This document shows positions 3,303-17,991 of a stretch of DNA of 64,000 nucleotides, in pieces (within the stretch, counting starts at the first letter, position 1; the number at the start of each line of letters is the position of its first letter). The position numbers were made by a program, and so were the translations under genes. This DNA is from Balneola sp. EhC07 (GTDB taxonomy: Bacteria; Bacteroidota; Rhodothermia; Balneolales; Balneolaceae): the NCBI RefSeq assembly GCF_001650905.1, contig NZ_LXYG01000003.1:1-64000 (forward strand), in the 5' to 3' direction. The notes under the pieces were generated by a model. It saw only the letters and a program-made list of their open reading frames with translations, did no database searches and was not told where the DNA came from.

Positions 3303-6300
3303 CTAGTTATCTGTATTCAAATACTCCTGAGGAGGGAGCCCATACATTTTTTTAAAGGCTCGGGAAAAGTATGAAAGGTTTGTGAACCCAACGGCATAAG
3401 ATGCTTCTGAAATATTGAGGCCCTCATCCTTTATAAGTTTTAATGCCTCTTCAAATCTAAACCTATTAATAATTTGATTTATAGTTTCATCATTTTCGTT
3501 CTTCCACTTCCTATACAACGATGCGCTACTCATTGATAGAGCTTCAGCTATCAGGTCTATATTAAGATCCGGATTACCAAGATGTCTTTTAATAATATCA
3601 GTTGTTCTGGTAGTAAAAGTATTCTTAACAGTTTGTTCTAATTTTTCCCCGCTTGCTTTGAGCATTCTTTCTCTTCTCAACAAAACTTTGATCTGGGCTA
3701 ACAAAAGCTTGTTTTGAACGGGTTTGGTTAGGTAAATGTCCGCCCCCATATTCAGTCCCTTTTGCACATCGTAATCACTATCTTTTGCTGAAAGAAAAAT
3801 AAAAGGGATATGTTTATATGAATCTATCCCTCTTATTGCGTTCATCATTTCAAATCCATCCATCTCAGGCATCATAATATCAGACAGAATGATATCAGGA
3901 TGAAAATCTTCTAAGGCTTCTAGTCCTAATTTACCATTTGAGGCAACCTTCACATTGTAATGTCTAGAAATCAGAGACTGGAGGTAAATTCTGAAGTCCT
4001 CATTATCTTCTACAAGCAGCACTTTCGGAGCAGTTTCAGAAATGCTTTTACTCTCTATTAATTCATCATTAATATTTACATCAATAAATGCAGGTTCCTT
4101 TTTGTCGATGTTTTTATATGACTCACTTACGATTTGGTGATTTTCTGAAATGTGCTCTTTGCCTTTCTTTACAATAACATCAAAAGTAGTACCCTCATTT
4201 TTTACTGAATGAACAAATATTTCACCTCCCATTTTTTCTATCATCCCTTTCACAATTGCCAAACCAATTCCTGTTCCTCCTGATTTTTCTATTGATGAAT
4301 CCCCCTGATAATATGGATCAAAAATAAATGGTAAATCCGCTTTTGCGATTCCCGATCCGGAATCCTCAAATATAACTTTAACAAAGTCATCTTCATTATT
4401 TATACAAACAAATACATTTCCTCCATCAGGAGTGAATTTTAGTGCATTACCCAACAGGTTAGTACAAATATGCTCCCATGCGCTTACATCCAGAAACACA
4501 AAGTTTGATTGATTGGTAGATTCTATTGAAAACTTGATCCCCTGTTTCTCAAAAGCGTATTCAAACTGTGCGGAAATACGCTTTGTCATTTCTACAATAT
4601 CTACTTCTTGAAAGGTTAAATTTATTTCTCCTGAACTAAGCTTTGATACATCTAGTAACTGGTTTACTAAACTTTTAAGACGATTTGCACTCCGCATCAT
4701 TAAAGAAAGTGGAGCTTTATTTCCGTTAGTTTGAATTGAATTGTTCTCCAGCATTTCTTCTAAAGGACTTAGAATTAAAGAAAGTGGAGTTCTTAGTTCG
4801 TGAGTAAAATTTGTGAAAAATTGAGACTTTGATTCATCCAACTTCTTGATTATTTGAAGAGCCTCTACCGTTTTCTCTTTTTCTTCCAATAATTCTTTTG
4901 TTCTGTCATTTACAAGCTCTTCTAATTTCATTTCTCGAAATTTGGACTGCTTTAACAAAGCTTTATAACCGAGGTAAAACACTCCGCCCAAAAAACATAG
5001 TGAAAGAACCAAAAACCAACCTGTTTCATAAAAATAGGGGGCCACATTTATCAGCATTGAAGCTTCAGAGTACTCATCAGAGCTTTTCAATTTACCTCTA
5101 ATCGACAGTTTATTCTCACCCGATGGGATATTCGTAAACACAGCTATCCTTTCATAGCTGGCATTTTCCCATACTTCATTGACACCCTCCATCTTATATT
5201 GAAGTTCCAGATTTTTAGTGCCGCTAAATGTGGGTAAAGTAAACTTCACCTGAATATTTCGAACATCTCTTGAGAAATTAATTTCCGATAAATTCCATAG
5301 GGTTTTAACAGAATCTGAAAAAGAAACAGTTTCAAACATAGGCATGGCCAGCTCTTTTTTATTTTTTTCAACATGCCATTCGGGTCGTGTATAGACCAAT
5401 CCTGATTGATTCGAGAAGATCAGTTTATTGTCTTTGGTTAAAAGACCTGCATTTTGTACTCCACCATTTCCTTCAATATTATTTAAACCATCTTCCTCTG
5501 TAAAACTTTCTACAGTTAAATTATTTATTTCACCATCTAAATATTTATTTAAGTTTCTTTGGCTTATTCTCATTATTCCACTATTTGAGTTTATCCAGAA
5601 ATAGCCGGACTTATCATCAATTAGTTTGTGCAAAGAGTTATCGATTAAGCCATCGCTTGCCAACACATATTCAATCTTTTTTATATCCCTGTATTGGTAG
5701 TGAACTATTCTGTTCAGGCCTCTGTCTTCGCTAACAACCCATGCTGTGTCATTGCTTGATTCATAAAAGTCACGGATAAGATTACTGCTCAACCCCTGTT
5801 CTTTGTTTATATATCTGAACAATGTATCCGTGCCTAAGATAACCAAGCCAAAGCCTGCTGTAGAAATTGCAAGTTCACCGGATTTAAGTTCTTTAATACT
5901 TCGAATCCCTTCTAAACGCTCTCCTGAATTGTCTTCAAATGGAACATAACTTGTACCATCAAATTTATATAAATATTTAGCAGTACCTACCCATTCTCTT
6001 TGTTTAGAATCTTTAGCTATTACATCAATTAAATTACGATCGTTTTCAAAAGCCGTGTTTTTTTTCCATTTCTGACCCTGATACTCCCAAAGATCAAAAT
6101 TGCCTGCCATAACGGTTTCATTTTCATCCACAAATACTGATCTAAAAAAAGTATAAGCAAGTTCGCTATTTGATCGGTTCCAATTTGTAAACCCTTCATC
6201 GGAAATCTTAAATATGTTGTTTTCAAAACTTGTTGCCCAAATATTATTCCCATCCTCATGCAACCCATATGTATTGAATAATCCCGGTATTTCATCTTCT

Positions 6301-7418
6301 CCAATAGTGATGATCTTTTTTTGAGTGATGTGATAAATACCGTCGCCATTTGTAGCAGTCCAAATTCCACCTTCCTTATCGATTGTTAAATAGACTATTC
6401 CACGTTGAGTATTCAGTACTTTTTTCCCACTAACATAAATACTGTTCTGAAATCGTATAACTGATTCAGAACGCTCTACCTGTTTCCAATCAATATTTTC
6501 AACATGTTCACTTAATGTTGATTCACTATCAATTTCTTTGAAATAGCCGTTTTCTCTGTTAAAACTCAGATATTTTTCTTTTGTATCAACTAAAAGCTCC
6601 TTATCGCTTACTTCAATGAAATCCCAAAGTATAACTGAGTTTTCTTGTTCATATATATAGAGTTTCTGATTGTTATTACTATCTACTTTTAATAATTGAT
6701 TGTGATATCCTAAAAGCCATCTAACTCCATCTTTTGTCATTTTCATTTTGAATACATCCTCAACCGGAATTAACAATGACTCAGCATCCATTACTTTTGT
6801 TACTTTCTTATCACGTACATAAAACCATCCATTCTCTGTAAGAAAGTCTAATCTGCCCCCATCAACTGAAAAGCTATTTTTTATTTCTGCTTGAGTATTT
6901 TCATCGTTGAACTGTACGAATTCAATTCCTTCTTTCTGCAGGTAGAGTCCTTTACTTGTTGTAATGATGACGCTTCCATCCGCTGTAACATCCAATTTCA
7001 AAACTTCTATATCTTTAAAAGCCTCTTTTTTTTGGAGCCATACAACCTCACCATATTTTAACATGTAGAGATTACCATTTACATCAGTAAACCATAACTC
7101 ATCATTTCCCCCACTCTCTAGCCATAAAATTCGATTACTCTGCATTGTTGGATCGGAGTTCGTATCAAAAACTACAAAACGATCTCCATCAAATCGGACA
7201 AGCCCGTCATTCGTTGCTACATAAATAAACCCATCTGTCTGATGAGTAATCTGATTCGCGGAATTGATAGGTAGCCCATCCTTTATAGAATAATTCCGAA
7301 TTTGATATTGGCTTGAAATATCATCCCAATTAAATGGAACAGGCGTTGGCTGAAAGGCAAGAACCTGCACTGAAGAAAACAGTAAAAAAAACAAACCAAC
7401 GCCTTTTGACACTCGCAT
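3303..7418 (-). CDS. Hybrid two-component system regulator (propeller sensor, kinase, receiver, AraC-type HTH)
   Basis: This 1371-residue protein carries a whole signalling pathway. An N-terminal signal peptide (residues 1-21) leads into a long periplasmic part with two-component-regulator propeller repeats, recognisable from IKDGLPINSANQI and DGLVRFDG. A Y_Y_Y domain (about 725-790) and one membrane segment (about 797-818) follow. The cytoplasmic part has a HisKA domain with phospho-acceptor His873 in FTHELRTP, an HATPase domain (NLLGNALKFTPDGG, GGTGIGLAIV), a receiver domain with phospho-acceptor Asp1180 in LSDIMMPE, and an AraC-type DNA-binding domain at the C-terminus (GFTNLSYFSRAFKKMYG). 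In Bacteroidota such proteins sense an extracellular ligand, often a glycan breakdown product, and activate neighbouring genes. It faces the GLUG-protein gene divergently across 307 bases, an obvious candidate target. The ligand is unknown. Confidence 0.95.
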   Translation of the reverse strand: MRVSKGVGLFFLLFSSVQVLAFQPTPVPFNWDDISSQYQIRNYSIKDGLPINSANQITHQTDGFIYVATNDGLVRFDGDRFVVFDTNSDPTMQSNRILWLESGGNDELWFTDVNGNLYMLKYGEVVWLQKKEAFKDIEVLKLDVTADGSVIITTSKGLYLQKEGIEFVQFNDENTQAEIKNSFSVDGGRLDFLTENGWFYVRDKKVTKVMDAESLLIPVEDVFKMKMTKDGVRWLLGYHNQLLKVDSNNNQKLYIYEQENSVILWDFIEVSDKELLVDTKEKYLSFNRENGYFKEIDSESTLSEHVENIDWKQVERSESVIRFQNSIYVSGKKVLNTQRGIVYLTIDKEGGIWTATNGDGIYHITQKKIITIGEDEIPGLFNTYGLHEDGNNIWATSFENNIFKISDEGFTNWNRSNSELAYTFFRSVFVDENETVMAGNFDLWEYQGQKWKKNTAFENDRNLIDVIAKDSKQREWVGTAKYLYKFDGTSYVPFEDNSGERLEGIRSIKELKSGELAISTAGFGLVILGTDTLFRYINKEQGLSSNLIRDFYESSNDTAWVVSEDRGLNRIVHYQYRDIKKIEYVLASDGLIDNSLHKLIDDKSGYFWINSNSGIMRISQRNLNKYLDGEINNLTVESFTEEDGLNNIEGNGGVQNAGLLTKDNKLIFSNQSGLVYTRPEWHVEKNKKELAMPMFETVSFSDSVKTLWNLSEINFSRDVRNIQVKFTLPTFSGTKNLELQYKMEGVNEVWENASYERIAVFTNIPSGENKLSIRGKLKSSDEYSEASMLINVAPYFYETGWFLVLSLCFLGGVFYLGYKALLKQSKFREMKLEELVNDRTKELLEEKEKTVEALQIIKKLDESKSQFFTNFTHELRTPLSLILSPLEEMLENNSIQTNGNKAPLSLMMRSANRLKSLVNQLLDVSKLSSGEINLTFQEVDIVEMTKRISAQFEYAFEKQGIKFSIESTNQSNFVFLDVSAWEHICTNLLGNALKFTPDGGNVFVCINNEDDFVKVIFEDSGSGIAKADLPFIFDPYYQGDSSIEKSGGTGIGLAIVKGMIEKMGGEIFVHSVKNEGTTFDVIVKKGKEHISENHQIVSESYKNIDKKEPAFIDVNINDELIESKSISETAPKVLLVEDNEDFRIYLQSLISRHYNVKVASNGKLGLEALEDFHPDIILSDIMMPEMDGFEMMNAIRGIDSYKHIPFIFLSAKDSDYDVQKGLNMGADIYLTKPVQNKLLLAQIKVLLRRERMLKASGEKLEQTVKNTFTTRTTDIIKRHLGNPDLNIDLIAEALSMSSASLYRKWKNENDETINQIINRFRFEEALKLIKDEGLNISEASYAVGFTNLSYFSRAFKKMYGLPPQEYLNTDN

Positions 7419-7725
7419 ACAGCAATTTTGATAGAATAAGTAAAATAATTGAGAGGATAGTATAAGATAAATCCAGTTTCAATTTTCTATCATTTGGAAA
7501 AATTAATACTTCGGCTACATAATTAAAGGTTAGTATTTGTTGATGGTTTATTATTAAGGGGTACAGAACCTTTTTAAATAGATTAATTAAAGCTCCATCA
7601 GATTGCAGCTGTCCATATTTATTTAAGAAGTTCAATTCGATGCTATCCCTATTGATACAACTAATAACATTTCTTAGATAAAAATATGCCGGGGTTTACT
7701 GATAAAACTAAGACGGATATTGGTG
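7419..7725. other. Divergent intergenic region, no gene seen
   Basis: This AT-rich gap separates the hybrid two-component regulator (leftward) from the GLUG-repeat gene (rightward). I see no convincing gene, RNA structure or perfect TAnnTTTG element. Both promoters should lie here, and so should any operator for the AraC-type domain of the regulator. A leftward open frame from 7635 into the regulator start has no recognisable product. Confidence 0.6.
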
Positions 7726-10700
7726 ATGAAAAACAATTCAAGAATTACCCGGCATACAAAACTTCTATTAACATTTTTACTGACTTTCTTAGTATCTAAC
7801 TATGGATACTCTCAAACAGCAATTGCGCCATCAGGAAGCGGAACTTCAGGTTCTCCATACCAAATTTCTTCCTTAGAAAATCTCTATTGGATTTCCCAAA
7901 ACACTTCTAGCTGGAATTCATACTTCGAGCAAACCGCAGATATTGACGCATCATCAACAGCCAACTGGGACGATGGCAATGGCGGGGATGCCGAAGGTTT
8001 CTCACCCATTGGTATAAGTTTTTCCGATGATTTTGGGGGAACTTACGATGGCGCCGGATACACTATTTCTGGCTTAACCATAAACCGAACTGTGGGCGAT
8101 GCCATCGGTCTTTTTGGAATAGCTTACAGAGCCAATGTCTCAAATCTTACCTTACAAAATGTAGATATTTCCTGCACCGCAAGTACGTATTGCGGAGCGC
8201 TTGTGGGACTTACAGGTTCAAGTTCCGAATACTCGAACATTTCAGTATCGGGCTCAGTAACAGGAAACAGCAATTTGGGTGGTATTATTGGTTGGATTTC
8301 CCAATCCCAAATAAGTCATAGCCACTTTAATGGAAGTGTAACTGGTGTGCGCACCCTTGGTGGATTGGTGGGCAATGTGAGTTCGTCTACCGTAACCAAT
8401 AGCTCGGCATTGGGATCGGTTACGGGCAACACCACAGGTTCATCAAGCAGTATTGGGGGTTTGGTTGGTATGAACGACCAAAGCGGAGTTATAAATCTTT
8501 CGTTTGCGGATGTTGATATTCCCGTTGCATATTCATCAGTAGGTGGGCTTGTGGGTACCAACAATCAATCGTCATCCATAAGCAACAGTTATGCTTTGGG
8601 TACGGTGAATGGCACGGTGAATATTGGTGGGCTAGTGGGTACCAACAATAGTTCTTCAAGTATAACCGATAGCTACTCTACCGGTGCTGCGAGCGGCTCT
8701 TTTAATTTTGCGGGATTGCTCGGTAGCAACAGCGGTGGAACCATTACAGGTAGTTTTTGGAATACCGAAACCAGTGGGCTCTCGACAGGAATTGCCAGCG
8801 ACAACAACTCGCAAAGTGCCACGGGATTAACCAGTGATGAAATGCTGGATGAATCCTCGTTTACGGGGCTTGATTTCTCCTCCACTTGGAATATCTATGA
8901 AGAATTAAGTTATCCGTTTATACAATCGAATGTACCAGACACACTTCCCGGGGGAGCAGTTCGACCGCTCGGCTCTGGAACCGAAGCCGAACCGTTTCAA
9001 ATAAGCAATCTAAGTCAACTTCGTTTAGTTAGTGCAGATACTTCCTATTGGAACGAGCATCTCATCCAAACTGCAGATATTGATGCTTCGGAAACATTAA
9101 ACTGGAATTCTGGCAGTGGTTTTTCGCCCATCGGAAGTAGTTCACATCCATTTACAGGATCATATAATGGTCAAGAGCACAGTATTTCTAATCTTTACAT
9201 TATTGCTCCCCGTTCAGGGCGAGGATTTATCGGCCATGCTGATGGGGCTTTGGTCAAAAACATATCCCTGTCGAATGTCAACATTACTTCAAGTTTTTGG
9301 TCGGGAGGTCTTATTGCTTTTGGGAATAACATTTCCGTTGATAACGTATTTGTATCAGGGCAATTAACTGGAAAATCATACGCGGGAGGTCTTGTGGGGT
9401 GGATTCAGGGGCTGGTTCATATTTCAAATAGCTCAACCAATGTAAGTGTATCATCTTCCTCTTCTAACGTAGGAGGTCTCATTGGCCAATCAGGAAGCAT
9501 ATCGGAAGGCTCTTATATCTCAAATAGTTATGCTAGTGGCAATGTAACTGGCATTGACTATGTAGGAGGGTTGATAGGAAGTTCGCGTATCGAAATAACA
9601 AAAAGCTATGCAACGGGCGATGTTTCCGGAACAAACTATATTGGAGGATTAGCTGGATTTTCAAGAGCTTTGGCATCTGAAAATTATGCTTTGGGAAATG
9701 TAAGTGGAACAGAGTATGTAGGGGGTCTTATTGGCCATGCTGATACATCTCCTATAAATAATAATTATGCTGCTGGCGAAGTTAGTGGTATAACAAAGGT
9801 TGGAGGGCTAATTGGCCGCGTTTGGGTCGGAGCTTCTGGCAACTATTCTACAGGACTTGTAACGGGCACTAATGAGGTTGGAGGGCTATTTGGGTATACT
9901 ACTCGAGCAACTCAGGATAATTTTTGGGATGTAGAAAATAGTGGCCAGACCGATGCTGTCGGTGCAGTCAACGGAAACGTTCATGTAGCAACAGGATTAA
10001 CTACCTCGCAAATGTATCAAAAAAGTAGTTTTTCGGGCTTTGATTTTGATTCTACGTGGGCGGCTCACTCAAACTTTACAAAACCTTACTTGCAATCTAA
10101 TCATAAAGATACGGTGGATGGTTATTTTGTAGATGATCTTAAAATGGATGGCAATGGAACCGAAGCCGATCCCTTTCAAATAAAAAACCTCATTCAACTT
10201 CGCCTCATAAGTGCTGATACTTCATTTTGGAACGAACACCTAATACAAACAGCAAATATAAATGCATCAGAAACTTCTTCGTGGAATTCAGGCAGCGGCT
10301 TTGTTCCTTTAGGCACAGCGTTCAACGAATTTACAGGGGCTTATAATGGTCAAAACTATACCATAACCGGACTTTATATTTCTAGGGGCTCAGGGACTGG
10401 ATTTTTTGGACGTACAAATGGCGCTAATATTTCAAATGTGATACTTGACCAGGTGGATATAACAGGTTCCAGTCAAGTTGGTGGATTGATCGGACAAGGT
10501 AAAAAAACAGTAATTTCGAATGCTCATGTTTCAGGAAGTATAACGGGTACGATATTAATTGGAGGACTAGTTGGCGATTTAGTGACCGAGGTTTCCGTTT
10601 CAAATAGTTCTTCAAGCGCTACAGTAACCAGTACTTCTTTATCGAATCAAAGTTCTCTAGCTGGCGGTCTAATCGGACGAGCGAGTGACTTGAGCGATTC

Positions 10701-13700
10701 TACGCTCTATTTTATTTCTACTAGCCATGCAACGGGTAATGTAACAGGCGAAAACTTTGTTGGTGGATTAGTGGGCGAACTAGAACTTCCAGTAAAAAAC
10801 AGTTATGCAACAGGTAATGTTTCAGGAGGAGATTGGACTGGAGGGCTTGCAGGACGATCTTCACAAGACTCTATTCTGATAAGCTACGCTACTGGAGATG
10901 TTTCTGGTAATAACTATGTGGGCGGGCTTATTGGGCATGCGAATAGCACCGTTTTTGATGCTTATGCAACCGGCAATGTTGATGGAAATGAATATGTAGG
11001 TGGACTTATCGGAAGAAATGGATTGGGCTTCATCATCAATACTTACTCCGGTGGAGCAGTAACCGGCAACCTTAATGTGGGCGGAATTGCTGGTTACTCT
11101 ACTCGCCCTATTACTAGCGCTTATTGGGATATTGAGAATAGCGGGCAAACTGTTGGGGTTGATAATTCTGGCAGTTCAAACGTAATAGGATTGACTTCCT
11201 CCAGCATGAAGCAGAAAAATAATTTTTCGAGCTTTGATTTTGATTCTACGTGGGCGATTCACAATAACTTCACCAAGCCGTATCTGCAATCAAATCATAC
11301 AGATTCTGTGGACGGATATGATCTAGATTTTTTCACTTTGAACGGGGCTGGAACCGAAGCCGACCCATACCAAATTGCAACCTTGCCAAACCTTTCATGG
11401 CTTAGCGAAACCGATAGCGTTTGGGATAAGTACTTTGTGCAAACAGCAAATATTGATGCTTCCCCAACCATAACTTGGGATGATAGCGCTGGATTTTCGC
11501 CCATTGGTTCTTGGCCACATTTTAGGGGTTCTTACGATGGAGATAATCATACGATTTCAGGACTTTATATAAATCGTCCATCCAACGAAGTCGGTCTATT
11601 TGTAAATGCTGGAACAGGAAGTATCATTCAAAATTTGGGTGTAACAGACATTGATTTCACAGGAGAACATGTAGCAGGTATGGCAAGAAATAATAGAGGG
11701 ACGATTTCCAACAGCTACTCTACGGGAAGTATTACTGCTTCCAGTACAGCAGGGGGGTTTGTGGGGCAAAACATAGTAGAGATTACAAATAGTTATTCAA
11801 CCGTAACTGTAAACAGCAGTGGTAGCGCTGGCGGATTTGTTAGATATAATTTTCCAAGCGGTTCTATTTCAGGCAGCCACTACTCGGGAGAAGTAACCGG
11901 AGCTACTTATGCGGGTGGATTTGCGGCAGAAAATGCAGGCACCATAACAACAAGCTATGCCATGGGTACCGTACAAGCAGGAACATATGGGGGTGGCTTT
12001 GTTGGGTATAGCAGTGGTTCCATTGATGATAGTTACTCGACAGCGGATATTTCCGGAACAGAAAGGGTTGGGGGTTTTATTGGGCGAAATCATGATGGAA
12101 CTATTTCTAGAGGGTATGCCACAGGAGTTGTATTTGGCACTACCACAGTTGGGGGGCTTATAGGGCTTAACGAAGGCGGAACCGTAGCGGAAGCGTATTG
12201 GGACTCAACCGCAAGTGGGCAATTACTCGCTTTTGGAAGTGACGACAATTCCCAAATGGCAACAGGTTTATCTACCTCTCAAAGTAAAACGAAAGTAAAT
12301 TATTCAGGATTTGATTTTAGCTCTGTATGGACAATTCATAGCAATTTTACAAGACCATACTTGCAATCTAACCATAAAGATTCTGTGGACGGGTTTGACT
12401 TAGATTTCTTTACCGTGAATGGAATCGGAACCGAAGCAGATCCCTACCAAATCGCAAACTTAGCCAACCTTTCGTGGATAAGTGATAACGAAACCGAATG
12501 GAGTAAGCACTTTCAACTAACGGACAATATTGATGCAAGCCCAAGCCAAACTTGGAACGATAGCCTTGGCTTTTCACCCATTGGGAATTCATCCACAAAA
12601 TTTACCGGAAGTCTTGATGGTCAGAATCACTACATAAACGGGCTTACCATTAACCAGCCAAGCTCTAATTTTTTGGGCTTGTTCGGCTATTTTTCGGATG
12701 CCACCATTGCTAACTTACATTTAGAGGATATCGACTATAAAGCCTCTAGTTATGTGGGCGGTTTGGTAGGTTTTAATGCGGGCTCAACCATCACCAATAC
12801 TACCATAAGCGGTAGTTTAGTGGCAAAAGATCGAGTAGGTGGGCTTATAGGCTGGACCCAAACGGCGCATTCCGGGCCAGAACTTAGCGTGGTAAATAGT
12901 TCATCGTCCGTAGATGTAACGGGCGCACTTTATACGGGTGGTTTAATCGGATATAATGGCGGGCCAGCTACCATTTCCAATGCTTATGCAACAGGAACTA
13001 TTGTTGGCACCCGCAATGTAGGTGGACTGATTGGGTATAATTCGGAAGCGACCATTAGCGGAAGTTATTCTACGGGAGATATCACGGCAGATGGACAAGT
13101 TGGGGGCTTGGTTAGCTTTAACCGAAGCAATAGTACCATCATTAATTCTTTTTCGACCAGTGATATTACGGCGGGCTATATTGTGGGAGGCTTGGTTGCG
13201 TACAATGTGCTTAGTTCCACCATCGAAAACAGCTACGCCTCTGGTGCAATTAATGCCACTTCTACCGTTGGGGGATTGGTAGCCAGTTTGGAATCGAATG
13301 CCTCCATCATAAACAGCTACTGGAATACCGAAACCACCAACCGAGCAAACGCCACAGGGAATAGCTTTAGCCCCGGCGTAGTTTCGGTAAAAGGATTTTC
13401 AACCGAGGAACTTAAAAACGATTCGAGCTACACAAATTGGGATTTTGCTGATACTTGGGTGCGTCCAAACGGTTCGGTATTACCAACTTTACAGTGGAGC
13501 GATTATAGATTAGGAGGTCCGGAAATTAAAGGTTCTCAAGGTTGGAGGATGTTTGGTGCTCCGTTTGCTAATTCTACTTTTGCAACTATTACAGATTCAT
13601 TATGGACGCAAGGAATTGAAGGAGCGTCAACATCAAAAGGAAGGTCTAATATATACACATGGAATGAATCCAGTCAATCTTGGGGCATTCCGGACTCAAT

Positions 13701-14916
13701 TAATGCTTCTGCTTCTTCAGGAAAAGGATTTATGATGTACGTTTTTGAAGATGACAGCTATGGCACGCCCGGTACTCAGGGAGGTTTTCCTAAGTCAATT
13801 ATAAGCGAAGGAAATGGTGTTACATTGCCTCAAACTATTCCGTTAAGCTATACAGAAGGAGCCATTTCAAATCTAAACGGAATAAATCTTATATCTAATC
13901 CGAGCTTCTCTACCCTAAATTGGGAAGAAATAACCAAAACAAACACAACCGGTATCTATTACGTTTGGGATGGCGCCAACGGCCATTATGATGCATATCA
14001 GACAGGTGTAGGCGGTACAAATTCTGCAACCAAATATATTGCGCCTTTTCAGGGTTTCTATGTAAAAGCGACAGCAGTTTCAGCTGAGCTAAATATAGAT
14101 TCTACGGCAATTGCTTCTACAGATACTGTCGCATATAAAGTTAACGCCAAGAATGAAATATTTTCTTTGTTATTACATCTCGAAAATAAAAATGGTTTAT
14201 CTGATGAACTTCGTTTGGTTGTAAGAGAAGAGGCTCATATTGAATATGATGAATTTGATGCCCCTGAATTCGGTTCTTTTGCTGAAAGCTTTTTAAATAT
14301 TTCAAGTCAATTAGATTCTATCAATCTTGTTATTGACTCAAGACCTTATGCTGAAATTCTTTCTTTTGATCTTGCTCTTGAAGCTCAAAATACTTCCGGA
14401 CAAACATCACTTTCCATTGCTGAAAACAAGCTTCCGGAAAATTGGACCATTGAACTTGTAAATACAGTAACGGAAGAACGATTCGACCTAACACAAGAAG
14501 AAGTGTCACTTTCTATATCAGAAACAAATGCGAAGCCTTCTTCTGAACCAAAAAAATTGAGAACTAAATCTTCCACTGTTAAACCAATATGGAAAGTAGT
14601 TATAAATACTACCGGAATTGCCACAAATACAGAAGACGAAGTAGGGTTACCGGATAAATTTTCGTTAAGTCAAAATTATCCGAATCCATTCAACCCTTCT
14701 ACAACAATTAATTATGATCTACCAAAAGCTAGTGTAGTAAAACTAACTGTTTTTGACATCCTGGGTAGAAAAGTAGCAACGCTGGCTAATGAAAGAAAGG
14801 AAGCCGGTTATCACCAAGTTGTTTTCGATGCTAGAGCATTAGCCTCTGGAGTGTACTTATATCGCTTAGAAGCAGGAAACAACATATTTATCAAAAAATT
14901 AACTCTCATTAAATAA
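7726..14916 (+). CDS. Giant secreted GLUG-repeat protein with T9SS sorting domain
   Basis: This 2396-residue protein has a signal peptide (residues 1-30, ending near NYGYSQ). It then has five large tandem blocks beginning near residues 37, 416, 809, 1207 and 1566. Each block opens with a G-x-GTEADPYQI-like segment and continues with many GLUG repeats of the form GGLVG...NSYATG.V.G. The first four close with a conserved FDF.STW element. GLUG repeats are expected to form a long beta-helix. A distinct region (about 1925-2300) follows, then a C-terminal T9SS type A domain from about 2310 with QNYPNPFNPST and GVYLYRLEAG. It is therefore predicted to be exported and surface-attached or released, perhaps as an adhesin or glycan-binding protein. 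I start it at the ATG at 7726; an in-frame TTG lies two codons earlier. Function is inferred from architecture alone. Confidence 0.9.
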   Translation: MKNNSRITRHTKLLLTFLLTFLVSNYGYSQTAIAPSGSGTSGSPYQISSLENLYWISQNTSSWNSYFEQTADIDASSTANWDDGNGGDAEGFSPIGISFSDDFGGTYDGAGYTISGLTINRTVGDAIGLFGIAYRANVSNLTLQNVDISCTASTYCGALVGLTGSSSEYSNISVSGSVTGNSNLGGIIGWISQSQISHSHFNGSVTGVRTLGGLVGNVSSSTVTNSSALGSVTGNTTGSSSSIGGLVGMNDQSGVINLSFADVDIPVAYSSVGGLVGTNNQSSSISNSYALGTVNGTVNIGGLVGTNNSSSSITDSYSTGAASGSFNFAGLLGSNSGGTITGSFWNTETSGLSTGIASDNNSQSATGLTSDEMLDESSFTGLDFSSTWNIYEELSYPFIQSNVPDTLPGGAVRPLGSGTEAEPFQISNLSQLRLVSADTSYWNEHLIQTADIDASETLNWNSGSGFSPIGSSSHPFTGSYNGQEHSISNLYIIAPRSGRGFIGHADGALVKNISLSNVNITSSFWSGGLIAFGNNISVDNVFVSGQLTGKSYAGGLVGWIQGLVHISNSSTNVSVSSSSSNVGGLIGQSGSISEGSYISNSYASGNVTGIDYVGGLIGSSRIEITKSYATGDVSGTNYIGGLAGFSRALASENYALGNVSGTEYVGGLIGHADTSPINNNYAAGEVSGITKVGGLIGRVWVGASGNYSTGLVTGTNEVGGLFGYTTRATQDNFWDVENSGQTDAVGAVNGNVHVATGLTTSQMYQKSSFSGFDFDSTWAAHSNFTKPYLQSNHKDTVDGYFVDDLKMDGNGTEADPFQIKNLIQLRLISADTSFWNEHLIQTANINASETSSWNSGSGFVPLGTAFNEFTGAYNGQNYTITGLYISRGSGTGFFGRTNGANISNVILDQVDITGSSQVGGLIGQGKKTVISNAHVSGSITGTILIGGLVGDLVTEVSVSNSSSSATVTSTSLSNQSSLAGGLIGRASDLSDSTLYFISTSHATGNVTGENFVGGLVGELELPVKNSYATGNVSGGDWTGGLAGRSSQDSILISYATGDVSGNNYVGGLIGHANSTVFDAYATGNVDGNEYVGGLIGRNGLGFIINTYSGGAVTGNLNVGGIAGYSTRPITSAYWDIENSGQTVGVDNSGSSNVIGLTSSSMKQKNNFSSFDFDSTWAIHNNFTKPYLQSNHTDSVDGYDLDFFTLNGAGTEADPYQIATLPNLSWLSETDSVWDKYFVQTANIDASPTITWDDSAGFSPIGSWPHFRGSYDGDNHTISGLYINRPSNEVGLFVNAGTGSIIQNLGVTDIDFTGEHVAGMARNNRGTISNSYSTGSITASSTAGGFVGQNIVEITNSYSTVTVNSSGSAGGFVRYNFPSGSISGSHYSGEVTGATYAGGFAAENAGTITTSYAMGTVQAGTYGGGFVGYSSGSIDDSYSTADISGTERVGGFIGRNHDGTISRGYATGVVFGTTTVGGLIGLNEGGTVAEAYWDSTASGQLLAFGSDDNSQMATGLSTSQSKTKVNYSGFDFSSVWTIHSNFTRPYLQSNHKDSVDGFDLDFFTVNGIGTEADPYQIANLANLSWISDNETEWSKHFQLTDNIDASPSQTWNDSLGFSPIGNSSTKFTGSLDGQNHYINGLTINQPSSNFLGLFGYFSDATIANLHLEDIDYKASSYVGGLVGFNAGSTITNTTISGSLVAKDRVGGLIGWTQTAHSGPELSVVNSSSSVDVTGALYTGGLIGYNGGPATISNAYATGTIVGTRNVGGLIGYNSEATISGSYSTGDITADGQVGGLVSFNRSNSTIINSFSTSDITAGYIVGGLVAYNVLSSTIENSYASGAINATSTVGGLVASLESNASIINSYWNTETTNRANATGNSFSPGVVSVKGFSTEELKNDSSYTNWDFADTWVRPNGSVLPTLQWSDYRLGGPEIKGSQGWRMFGAPFANSTFATITDSLWTQGIEGASTSKGRSNIYTWNESSQSWGIPDSINASASSGKGFMMYVFEDDSYGTPGTQGGFPKSIISEGNGVTLPQTIPLSYTEGAISNLNGINLISNPSFSTLNWEEITKTNTTGIYYVWDGANGHYDAYQTGVGGTNSATKYIAPFQGFYVKATAVSAELNIDSTAIASTDTVAYKVNAKNEIFSLLLHLENKNGLSDELRLVVREEAHIEYDEFDAPEFGSFAESFLNISSQLDSINLVIDSRPYAEILSFDLALEAQNTSGQTSLSIAENKLPENWTIELVNTVTEERFDLTQEEVSLSISETNAKPSSEPKKLRTKSSTVKPIWKVVINTTGIATNTEDEVGLPDKFSLSQNYPNPFNPSTTINYDLPKASVVKLTVFDILGRKVATLANERKEAGYHQVVFDARALASGVYLYRLEAGNNIFIKKLTLIK

Positions 14917-14930
14917 AAAACATTAGACTC

Positions 14931-14970
14931 AAGACATAAGAAGTGAGACTTCCTTTAAATCTTATGTCTT
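14931..14970 (+). terminator. Stem-loop after the GLUG gene
   Basis: A perfect 10-base inverted repeat, AAGACATAAG and CTTATGTCTT, lies 14 bases after the GLUG stop codon. A smaller nested stem (GAAGT/ACTTC) sits inside it. The T-run after it is short and broken, so it may be a weak terminator, an mRNA-stabilising 3' structure, or an attenuator before the small gene at 14,993. Confidence 0.5.
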
Positions 14971-14992
14971 TCATCTTAAATATATATCCACC

Positions 14993-15187
14993 ATGAAAAC
15001 TCTACTCTTTACCTTACTAACTCTAACAATCATCTTAATATTAACAACTGTTATCAATGCACAACTACCTGGACTTCCCGGTGATGATCCGGCACAAGCT
15101 CCAATTGATGGTGGGCTTGGTTTACTTGCTGCAGCTGGTGGAGCGTATGCATATAAAAAACTGCGTTTTGACAAAACACAGGAATAA
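14993..15187 (+). CDS. Tiny secreted protein with a PID-CTERM-like sorting signal
   Basis: The 64-residue product has a strongly hydrophobic signal peptide (residues 1-23, ending near INAQ). A short Pro/Gly/Asp-rich mature part follows, then a C-terminal tripartite signal: a PIDGG motif, a small-residue hydrophobic helix (LGLLAAAGGAYAY) and a basic cluster KKLR. As I recall, this matches the PID-CTERM type of putative protein-sorting tail described in Bacteroidota. The mature chain would be only about 41 residues. It follows the giant secreted protein and is closed by a strong terminator at 15,277. The sorting enzyme is not identifiable in this window, and the function of such mini-proteins is unknown. 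Confidence 0.75.
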   Translation: MKTLLFTLLTLTIILILTTVINAQLPGLPGDDPAQAPIDGGLGLLAAAGGAYAYKKLRFDKTQE

Positions 15188-17721: not shown

Positions 17722-17991
17722 GTGGAATTCCGGGAAACTAAAGAGAAATCAGCTCAGCACTGTGGGATGTGTGGCACCAAGAATGGCCAAGAGCGTCCTG
17801 TTGGTAAAATTATTGTTCAACTAAAGCCTACTATTTATAAAGGTAAACAAGATCATTTATGTCAAACTTGTTTCGTGTTGAACAATAGTGAAATAAACCG
17901 CAAAGAAGGTCATTTAGCTGAAAAAAAGCAATTGAAATGGTATCAAAGGCTTTTGAAGATTGGATTTATAACCAAAAAATCTAATGAATGA
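17722..17991 (+). CDS. Small CxxC (zinc-ribbon-like) protein, unknown function
   Basis: An 89-residue protein with two cysteine pairs, HCGMC near residue 15 and LCQTC near 50, spaced as in a small zinc ribbon. The rest is basic and ends KKSNE. I do not recognise a family. It uses a GTG start, because the ATG at 17711 runs into a stop after two codons. Its reality is supported by the paired cysteines and by a perfect 15-base terminator stem that includes its stop codon. It could be a nucleic-acid-binding or redox-sensing protein; that is a guess from the zinc ribbon only. Confidence 0.65.
   Translation: MEFRETKEKSAQHCGMCGTKNGQERPVGKIIVQLKPTIYKGKQDHLCQTCFVLNNSEINRKEGHLAEKKQLKWYQRLLKIGFITKKSNE

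Follow-up and report, generated by a model that had tools for sequence, protein, structure and literature searches.

Gene and precursor layout of the mini-protein

The window, a 64,000-nucleotide stretch of the Balneola sp. EhC07 genome, carries the gene for a giant T9SS type A cargo, followed on the same strand and after a gap of 76 nt by a very small open reading frame, whose presence was confirmed and which starts with ATG (Table 1). Divergent to the cargo gene lies a gene (3303-7418, minus strand) whose 1371-aa product is a hybrid sensor kinase/response regulator and includes an AraC-type DNA-binding domain. The product of the small frame matches the NCBIfam model NF046080, PID_CTERM, with 39.6 bits (E 3.3e-10, residues 36-58), and given the curated cut-off of 26 bits this match is not due to chance, which bears out the identity proposed in the initial annotation. 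At the protein level there is no difference from this family: sequence and alignment place the motif, the short hydrophobic stretch and the terminal basic cluster all in the protein, and P37, I38, D39, G40 and G41 are invariant across 19 aligned sequences. A Pfam scan assigned the mini-protein to no family, and the NCBIfam scan returned only NF046080 and a sub-threshold DLW-39 match, with no T9SS C-terminal tail.

Table 1. Features of the cargo and mini-protein genes in the window.
Feature	Position	Strand	Basis
Giant T9SS type A cargo (partner), 2398 aa, GLUG repeats	7720-14916	+	TIGR04183 45.2 bits, PF18962 40.8 bits, Glug 16 stretches
Pre-tail domain, homologous to RemA/RemZ region	13789-14631	+	Custom profile; PDB sequence matches; AlphaFold2
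T9SS type A C-terminal tail of giant cargo	14677-14901	+	TIGR04183
Cargo-PID intergenic stretch with stem-loop (about 14925-14976), MFE -14.4 kcal/mol	14917-14992	+	Fold; z -2.9 against dinucleotide shuffles
PID-CTERM mini-protein gene	14993-15187	+	64 aa plus stop; NF046080 match; one of six in genome
Predicted signal peptide, residues 1-23, cleavage between INA and Q	14993-15061	+	Sequence read; paralogues and homologues with same layout
N-terminal mature segment QLPGLPGDDPAQA, 13 residues (24-36), entire	15062-15100	+	Sequence
PIDGG (37-41) and short hydrophobic segment LGLLAAAGGAYAY (42-54), proposed exosortase recognition signal	15101-15154	+	HMM match, alignment
Basic/charged C-terminal tail KKLRFDKTQE, residues 55-64	15155-15184	+	Sequence

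The precursor reads MKTLLFTLLTLTIILILTTVINA/QLPGLPGDDPAQA-PIDGG-LGLLAAAGGAYAY-KKLRFDKTQE, where the slash marks the predicted cleavage site. Judged by eye, its first 23 residues resemble a signal peptide, with an initial MKT, a long hydrophobic core and INA ahead of the Q. With 13 residues between this predicted signal peptide and PIDGG, the precursor is as minimal as first described, and such a minimal size is the norm for the PID_CTERM family. In 76 of 77 homologues, those in which a simple rule could place the signal-peptide site, the equivalent segment spans 5-26 residues (median 11), and in 74 of the 76 it spans 5-20. These homologues, from Balneolaceae, Chitinophagaceae, Hymenobacter, Marinoscillum, Rhodothermia and others, are the distinct loci among the best 80 of 211 matches to the scan pattern [AVT]PIDGG[LA][GSA][LIV]L, which forces conservation at the positions it requires. 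Counted from the P of PIDGG, the helix is conserved at L9 (100%, imposed by the pattern), A11 (90%), G13 (96%) and Y16 (97%). The mature peptide begins with Gln in 68 of 76 cases, a residue that the site rule favours, and its sequence varies between clades, which leaves no evident binding epitope conserved across the phylum.

Several variants of this layout were observed. In Rhodothermia-like genomes (L209-L216) the PID proteins are longer, and their mature part has a second mini-motif like (L/V/I)P(S/D/E/P)WA(E/S/Q). An in-frame CxxC...CxxC module stands 5′ of the PID signal peptide in 5 of 127 peptides and additionally at L217 (L001, L096, L097, L137, L190 and L217), possibly giving a form with a cytosolic, metal-binding-like head, although each copy has an internal Met that makes the start ambiguous. 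The window itself encodes, after recG, an 89-aa frame (17722-17991, plus strand) with the same CxxC...CxxC module and an RPVG(N/K)-I-V-L core; 6 of 28 close genomes have relatives of it, one of which lies directly after the T9SS cargo tail of a 7518-aa frame (L268).

PID genes follow T9SS cargos

The initial reading of the tail as a sorting signal implied further PIDGG-tailed proteins in the genome, and a profile search of the contigs (3.62 Mb, 20 contigs) found six PID_CTERM proteins above the cut-off and a seventh match below it, at 16.3 bits. All six share the core AQAPIDGGLGLLAAAGGAYAYKKL, the best species-assigned matches to them are from Balneolaceae, and no copies were found on plasmids. 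Long PID-tailed proteins, which would have shown that the tail is a sorting signal in general, were also sought, and this line was set aside: the sole long match (973 aa, L228) resembles the MSEP-CTERM protein of XrtK systems, by comparison with a scored protein from L070, and thus looks like a cross-hit.

All six PID genes lie directly 3′ of a T9SS type A cargo gene on the same strand, in a genome that has 61 TIGR04183 tails and encodes PorU. This order extends well beyond the genome. An open reading frame ends at most 950 nt upstream of the motif at 69 of the 77 loci, the other 8 being left out of the neighbour count because an upstream frame or room was lacking, and TIGR04183 is found on 63 of these 69 frames and PF18962 on 57. 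A second set, taken from a genome sample, comprised 55 loci, of which 5 were omitted because the pattern could not be placed on them and 1 because of short room; a T9SS neighbour lies upstream in 41 of the 49 testable loci, and since the two sets partly overlap, their counts are not independent. When a profile grown from the genome's own T9SS tails was applied within 1.5 kb of PID genes, tails were upstream on the same strand 61 times, downstream on the same strand 10 times, downstream on the opposite strand once and upstream on the opposite strand never. Loci with no T9SS neighbour number 6 of 69 and 8 of 49 in the two sets; in some of these exceptions the preceding gene is fumarase-like or SAM-synthetase-like, as judged by sequence reading, and one copy (L029) lies behind an exosortase gene and its accessory gene. 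The cargo-PID pairing is therefore well supported. The initial annotation, which was right about the identity, the minimal size, the further copies and the enzyme described below, missed this link to the giant neighbour, and the link is not incidental.

The pairing also bears on two roles that had been suggested for the mini-protein. As a secreted signal, a short Pro/Gly-rich peptide would be released and sensed by neighbours, which would suit a product that is short, exported, multicopy and clade-specific in sequence. The constant neighbour of the gene, however, is a T9SS cargo, copies within one genome are near-identical, and no receptor or response gene was found tied to PID; with no support found for this role, we regard it as very improbable. 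The other role, that of a subunit in a surface structure, would fit the cargo pairing.

The stem-loop between cargo and mini-protein in the window is predicted by folding and may set the ratio of cargo to PID expression. A conserved intergenic RNA was also considered as a defining part of the arrangement and rejected, as z falls below -2 in 54% of 84 cargo-PID stretches and such stem-loops are missing from the others. At L002, L005 and L006 the stretch folds into stem-loops of -38 to -43 kcal/mol, formed by TTAGCT/CTAAAAG-like repeats that look like repeated palindromic elements.

PID-linked cargos share a RemA/RemZ-like domain

A domain of about 270 residues lies just N-terminal of the T9SS tail in the PID-linked cargos, and most copies of it end 85-98 residues ahead of the stop. 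Our profile of this pre-tail domain came from the six cargos of the genome, each trimmed by its last 85 residues. It recognised 91 of 112 frames upstream of PID genes and 0 of 29 other T9SS cargos that were sampled; four rounds of iteration, the later ones trained on the same set, raised the first figure to 104 of 112 and left the second at 0 of 29. The domain corresponds to no Pfam family; in a scan of 51 members, one weak Gelsolin match was seen. Among PDB sequences, the profile picks out RemA (8gl6_D, residues 1078-1350 of 1436, E 6.9e-43) and RemZ (8gl8_D, residues 745-1027 of 1114, E 1.7e-37), T9SS type A proteins in which the homologous region likewise lies directly ahead of the C-terminal tail, whereas a phmmer search that used just the window sequence missed RemA. 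In the RemZ structure, the tail alone is described as well resolved (PMC10994853). AlphaFold2 predicts an almost all-beta pre-tail domain (mean pLDDT 83.6), for which Foldseek returned no solved structural relative at E <= 0.001 and VIA-align gave Z values of 4.2 or less.

The genome has 12 copies of this domain, 6 of them followed by PID, and 27 of 28 relatives have the domain as well, some of them negative for PID and XrtX, indicating that PID accompanies some RemA/RemZ-like cargos and not others. An exclusive pairing between PID and the domain, as drawn from the 0 of 29, was dropped because that sample of 29 of the 61 tails contained no PID-less, domain-bearing cargos. Among the genome's own 61 cargos, about 49 have no pre-tail domain and PID stands behind none of them; the resulting comparison, 6 of 12 against 0 of 49, assumes one T9SS cargo per domain copy, of which 11 of the 12 are listed. 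Three consecutive giant T9SS cargos with the RemA domain and no PID were seen at G000:C15:33609-50190, with comparable triplets in three other genomes (G001, G002 and G012). At L236, L240 and L243 the gene behind the cargo encodes a protein of 140-173 aa that has a single hydrophobic segment, at its N-terminus.

These distributions also speak to whether recombination simply duplicated PID along with cargo genes, in which case the two would travel together with no functional tie. Three pairs in the genome have near-identical PID proteins and cargo tails and seem to have been duplicated as units, as such hitch-hiking would predict. The same order is nevertheless found again in Balneolaceae, Chitinophagaceae, Hymenobacter and Marinoscillum, where both the cargos and the PID sequences differ greatly, and PID is absent behind the many own cargos that have no pre-tail domain, so we consider passive hitch-hiking improbable.

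PID proteins co-occur with exosortase X

Two exosortase-family genes in the genome exceed the Pfam cut-off. The first, on contig C15, encodes an exosortase K (XrtK, 162 bits) and adjoins a gene for an MSEP-CTERM protein, indicating that XrtK already has a partner of its own. The second supplies the co-occurring candidate sorting enzyme for which the initial annotation had proposed a search. This exosortase X gene (XrtX; G000:C19:55957-56442) encodes a protein that matches NF046081 with 203.8 bits against a cut-off of 170, and it carries the motifs DGCNG, NLVRI and FTHDY, whose Cys, Arg and His we take to be catalytic. It is flanked by a gene for a putative DegT-type aminotransferase, as read from sequence, and by one for a 160-aa membrane protein that has no NCBIfam match; small membrane proteins akin to this accessory follow many XrtX genes.

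Across genomes, PID and XrtX tend to be present or absent together. Among 28 close genomes, PID is found in 21, XrtX in 19 and both in 18, the three with PID only being drafts (78, 86 and 92% complete) that gave no exosortase match at E 0.001. Among 394 genomes of the phylum, with XrtX called at 140 bits or more, 48 have both, 10 PID only, 4 XrtX only and 332 neither (Fisher p 8e-47), and in the window's family these figures are 31, 0, 3 and 11 (p 3.6e-8); the genomes share descent, and both p-values overstate their independence. Raising the XrtX threshold to 170 bits gives 43, 15, 2 and 334 genomes, and lowering it to 100 bits gives 53, 5, 15 and 321; each of the five genomes with PID and no XrtX at 100 bits has another exosortase-family gene. 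Joint absence is repeated inside three genera (g4, g7 and g20), which indicates that PID and XrtX are not one inherited block. SprA is present in 302 of the 394 genomes, and these include all 58 that have PID.

The two genes can also be neighbours. Side-by-side PID and exosortase-family genes were seen in six genomes (L029, L218, L219, L220 and L221, and G058 by coordinates). At L221, a large frame with a T9SS-like end, recognised by eye, is followed in one direction by PID, the exosortase and the accessory protein; at L029, the order is XrtX, accessory, PID and a secreted frame whose C-terminus runs beyond the sequence examined. From this co-occurrence and adjacency we infer that PID_CTERM proteins and XrtX are a pair. 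The adjacent accession numbers NF046080 and NF046081 suggest that the NCBI curators noticed the pairing too.

The main rival to processing of the tail is that PID is a permanent inner-membrane microprotein, whose helix of small residues would aid the cargo on its way through the periplasm or the T9SS, with XrtX perhaps clipping or regulating it. Conservation of the helix at L9, A11, G13 and Y16 is unusual for a sorting tail, there is hardly any mature chain, the cargo pairing suits such an aid, and the in-frame CxxC...CxxC extension on some Balneolaceae copies fits a membrane-resident form. In contrast, the tight co-occurrence and adjacency with an exosortase point to processing of the tail, and we therefore judge a permanent membrane role unlikely, though by no means negligible.

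Discussion

Our analysis favours, with moderate confidence, a reading in which XrtX acts on the PID protein as its substrate and the PID protein partners a RemA-like surface protein of the T9SS, probably in the retention or assembly of that protein. The presence of one enzyme and several tiny substrates, whose genes each stand behind that of a large T9SS surface protein, is best read as a cassette in which an XrtX-processed peptide serves its cargo. The mini-precursor would be co-transcribed and made together with the upstream type A surface protein, with its RemA/RemZ-like pre-tail domain and type A tail, exported by means of its signal peptide and anchored in the inner membrane through its C-terminal helix. 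Processing at the PIDGG region by the only exosortase X of the genome would leave a peptide of roughly 13-17 residues that is probably conjugated to an envelope molecule. This peptide would most likely keep the upstream cargo on the cell surface or complete its assembly. Retention or assembly appears the likeliest service because RemA is a mobile surface lectin, according to a reference title in PMC10994853, and because Flavobacterium johnsoniae xrtF and T9SS deletions have biofilm and colonisation defects in common (PMC10936215). Counting against the XrtX-processed partner are the pre-tail domain, which is not specific to PID, the loci with no T9SS neighbour, the variation of the mature peptide between clades, and the four genomes with XrtX only at 140 bits.

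A bolder reading would make the PID peptide itself the linker. XrtX would fix the new C-terminus of the peptide to an envelope lipid or sugar, and the T9SS sortase PorU would join the trimmed C-terminus of the cargo to the free N-terminus of the peptide, which would thereby replace the amino-acid-bearing linking sugar to which cargo is joined in Porphyromonas gingivalis (PMC7468200). A common theme with exosortases is offered as speculation by the authors of that study (PMC7468200). The linker reading would explain why the mature protein has little beyond a free N-terminus and a sorting tail, and why its gene stands behind that of the cargo. An N-terminal Gln, however, could cyclise and block a joining reaction at the N-terminus, and the frequency of Gln at this position counts against PorU joining; we hold this linker chemistry to be highly unlikely.

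Processing of PID by XrtX would resemble the exosortase/PEP-CTERM (EpsH) system in its N-terminal signal, its C-terminal arrangement of motif, helix and basic tail, and the handling of many substrates by a single enzyme. The proteins that bear PEP-CTERM tails are varied and sizeable, whereas the PID tails found here are almost only on small ones. The XrtX of this genome is of the same type as the NF046081 enzymes, and it also passes TIGR04128 (93.7 bits, cut-off 90), which brings it close to the XrtF system of F. johnsoniae. There, xrtF and its neighbour have phenotypes in common with T9SS genes, and the XrtF substrates are left to future work (PMC10936215).

The PID_CTERM family is already known and was named before, and a link to T9SS cargos is not part of the name of its model. 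What is new here is the XrtX pairing, with numbers, and the partnership with T9SS; in the openly accessible literature searched, we found no mention of PID-CTERM, of its XrtX pairing or of the T9SS partnership. An orphan class of mini sorting-signal proteins thus acquires a specific enzyme and one particular kind of secreted partner, and two secretion routes that are usually treated separately become linked. If the partnership holds, Bacteroidota exosortases may serve T9SS surface display, the phenotypes that xrtF and T9SS mutants of F. johnsoniae have in common would have a reason, and the purpose of proteins that are mainly a sorting signal would become testable with single-gene deletions.
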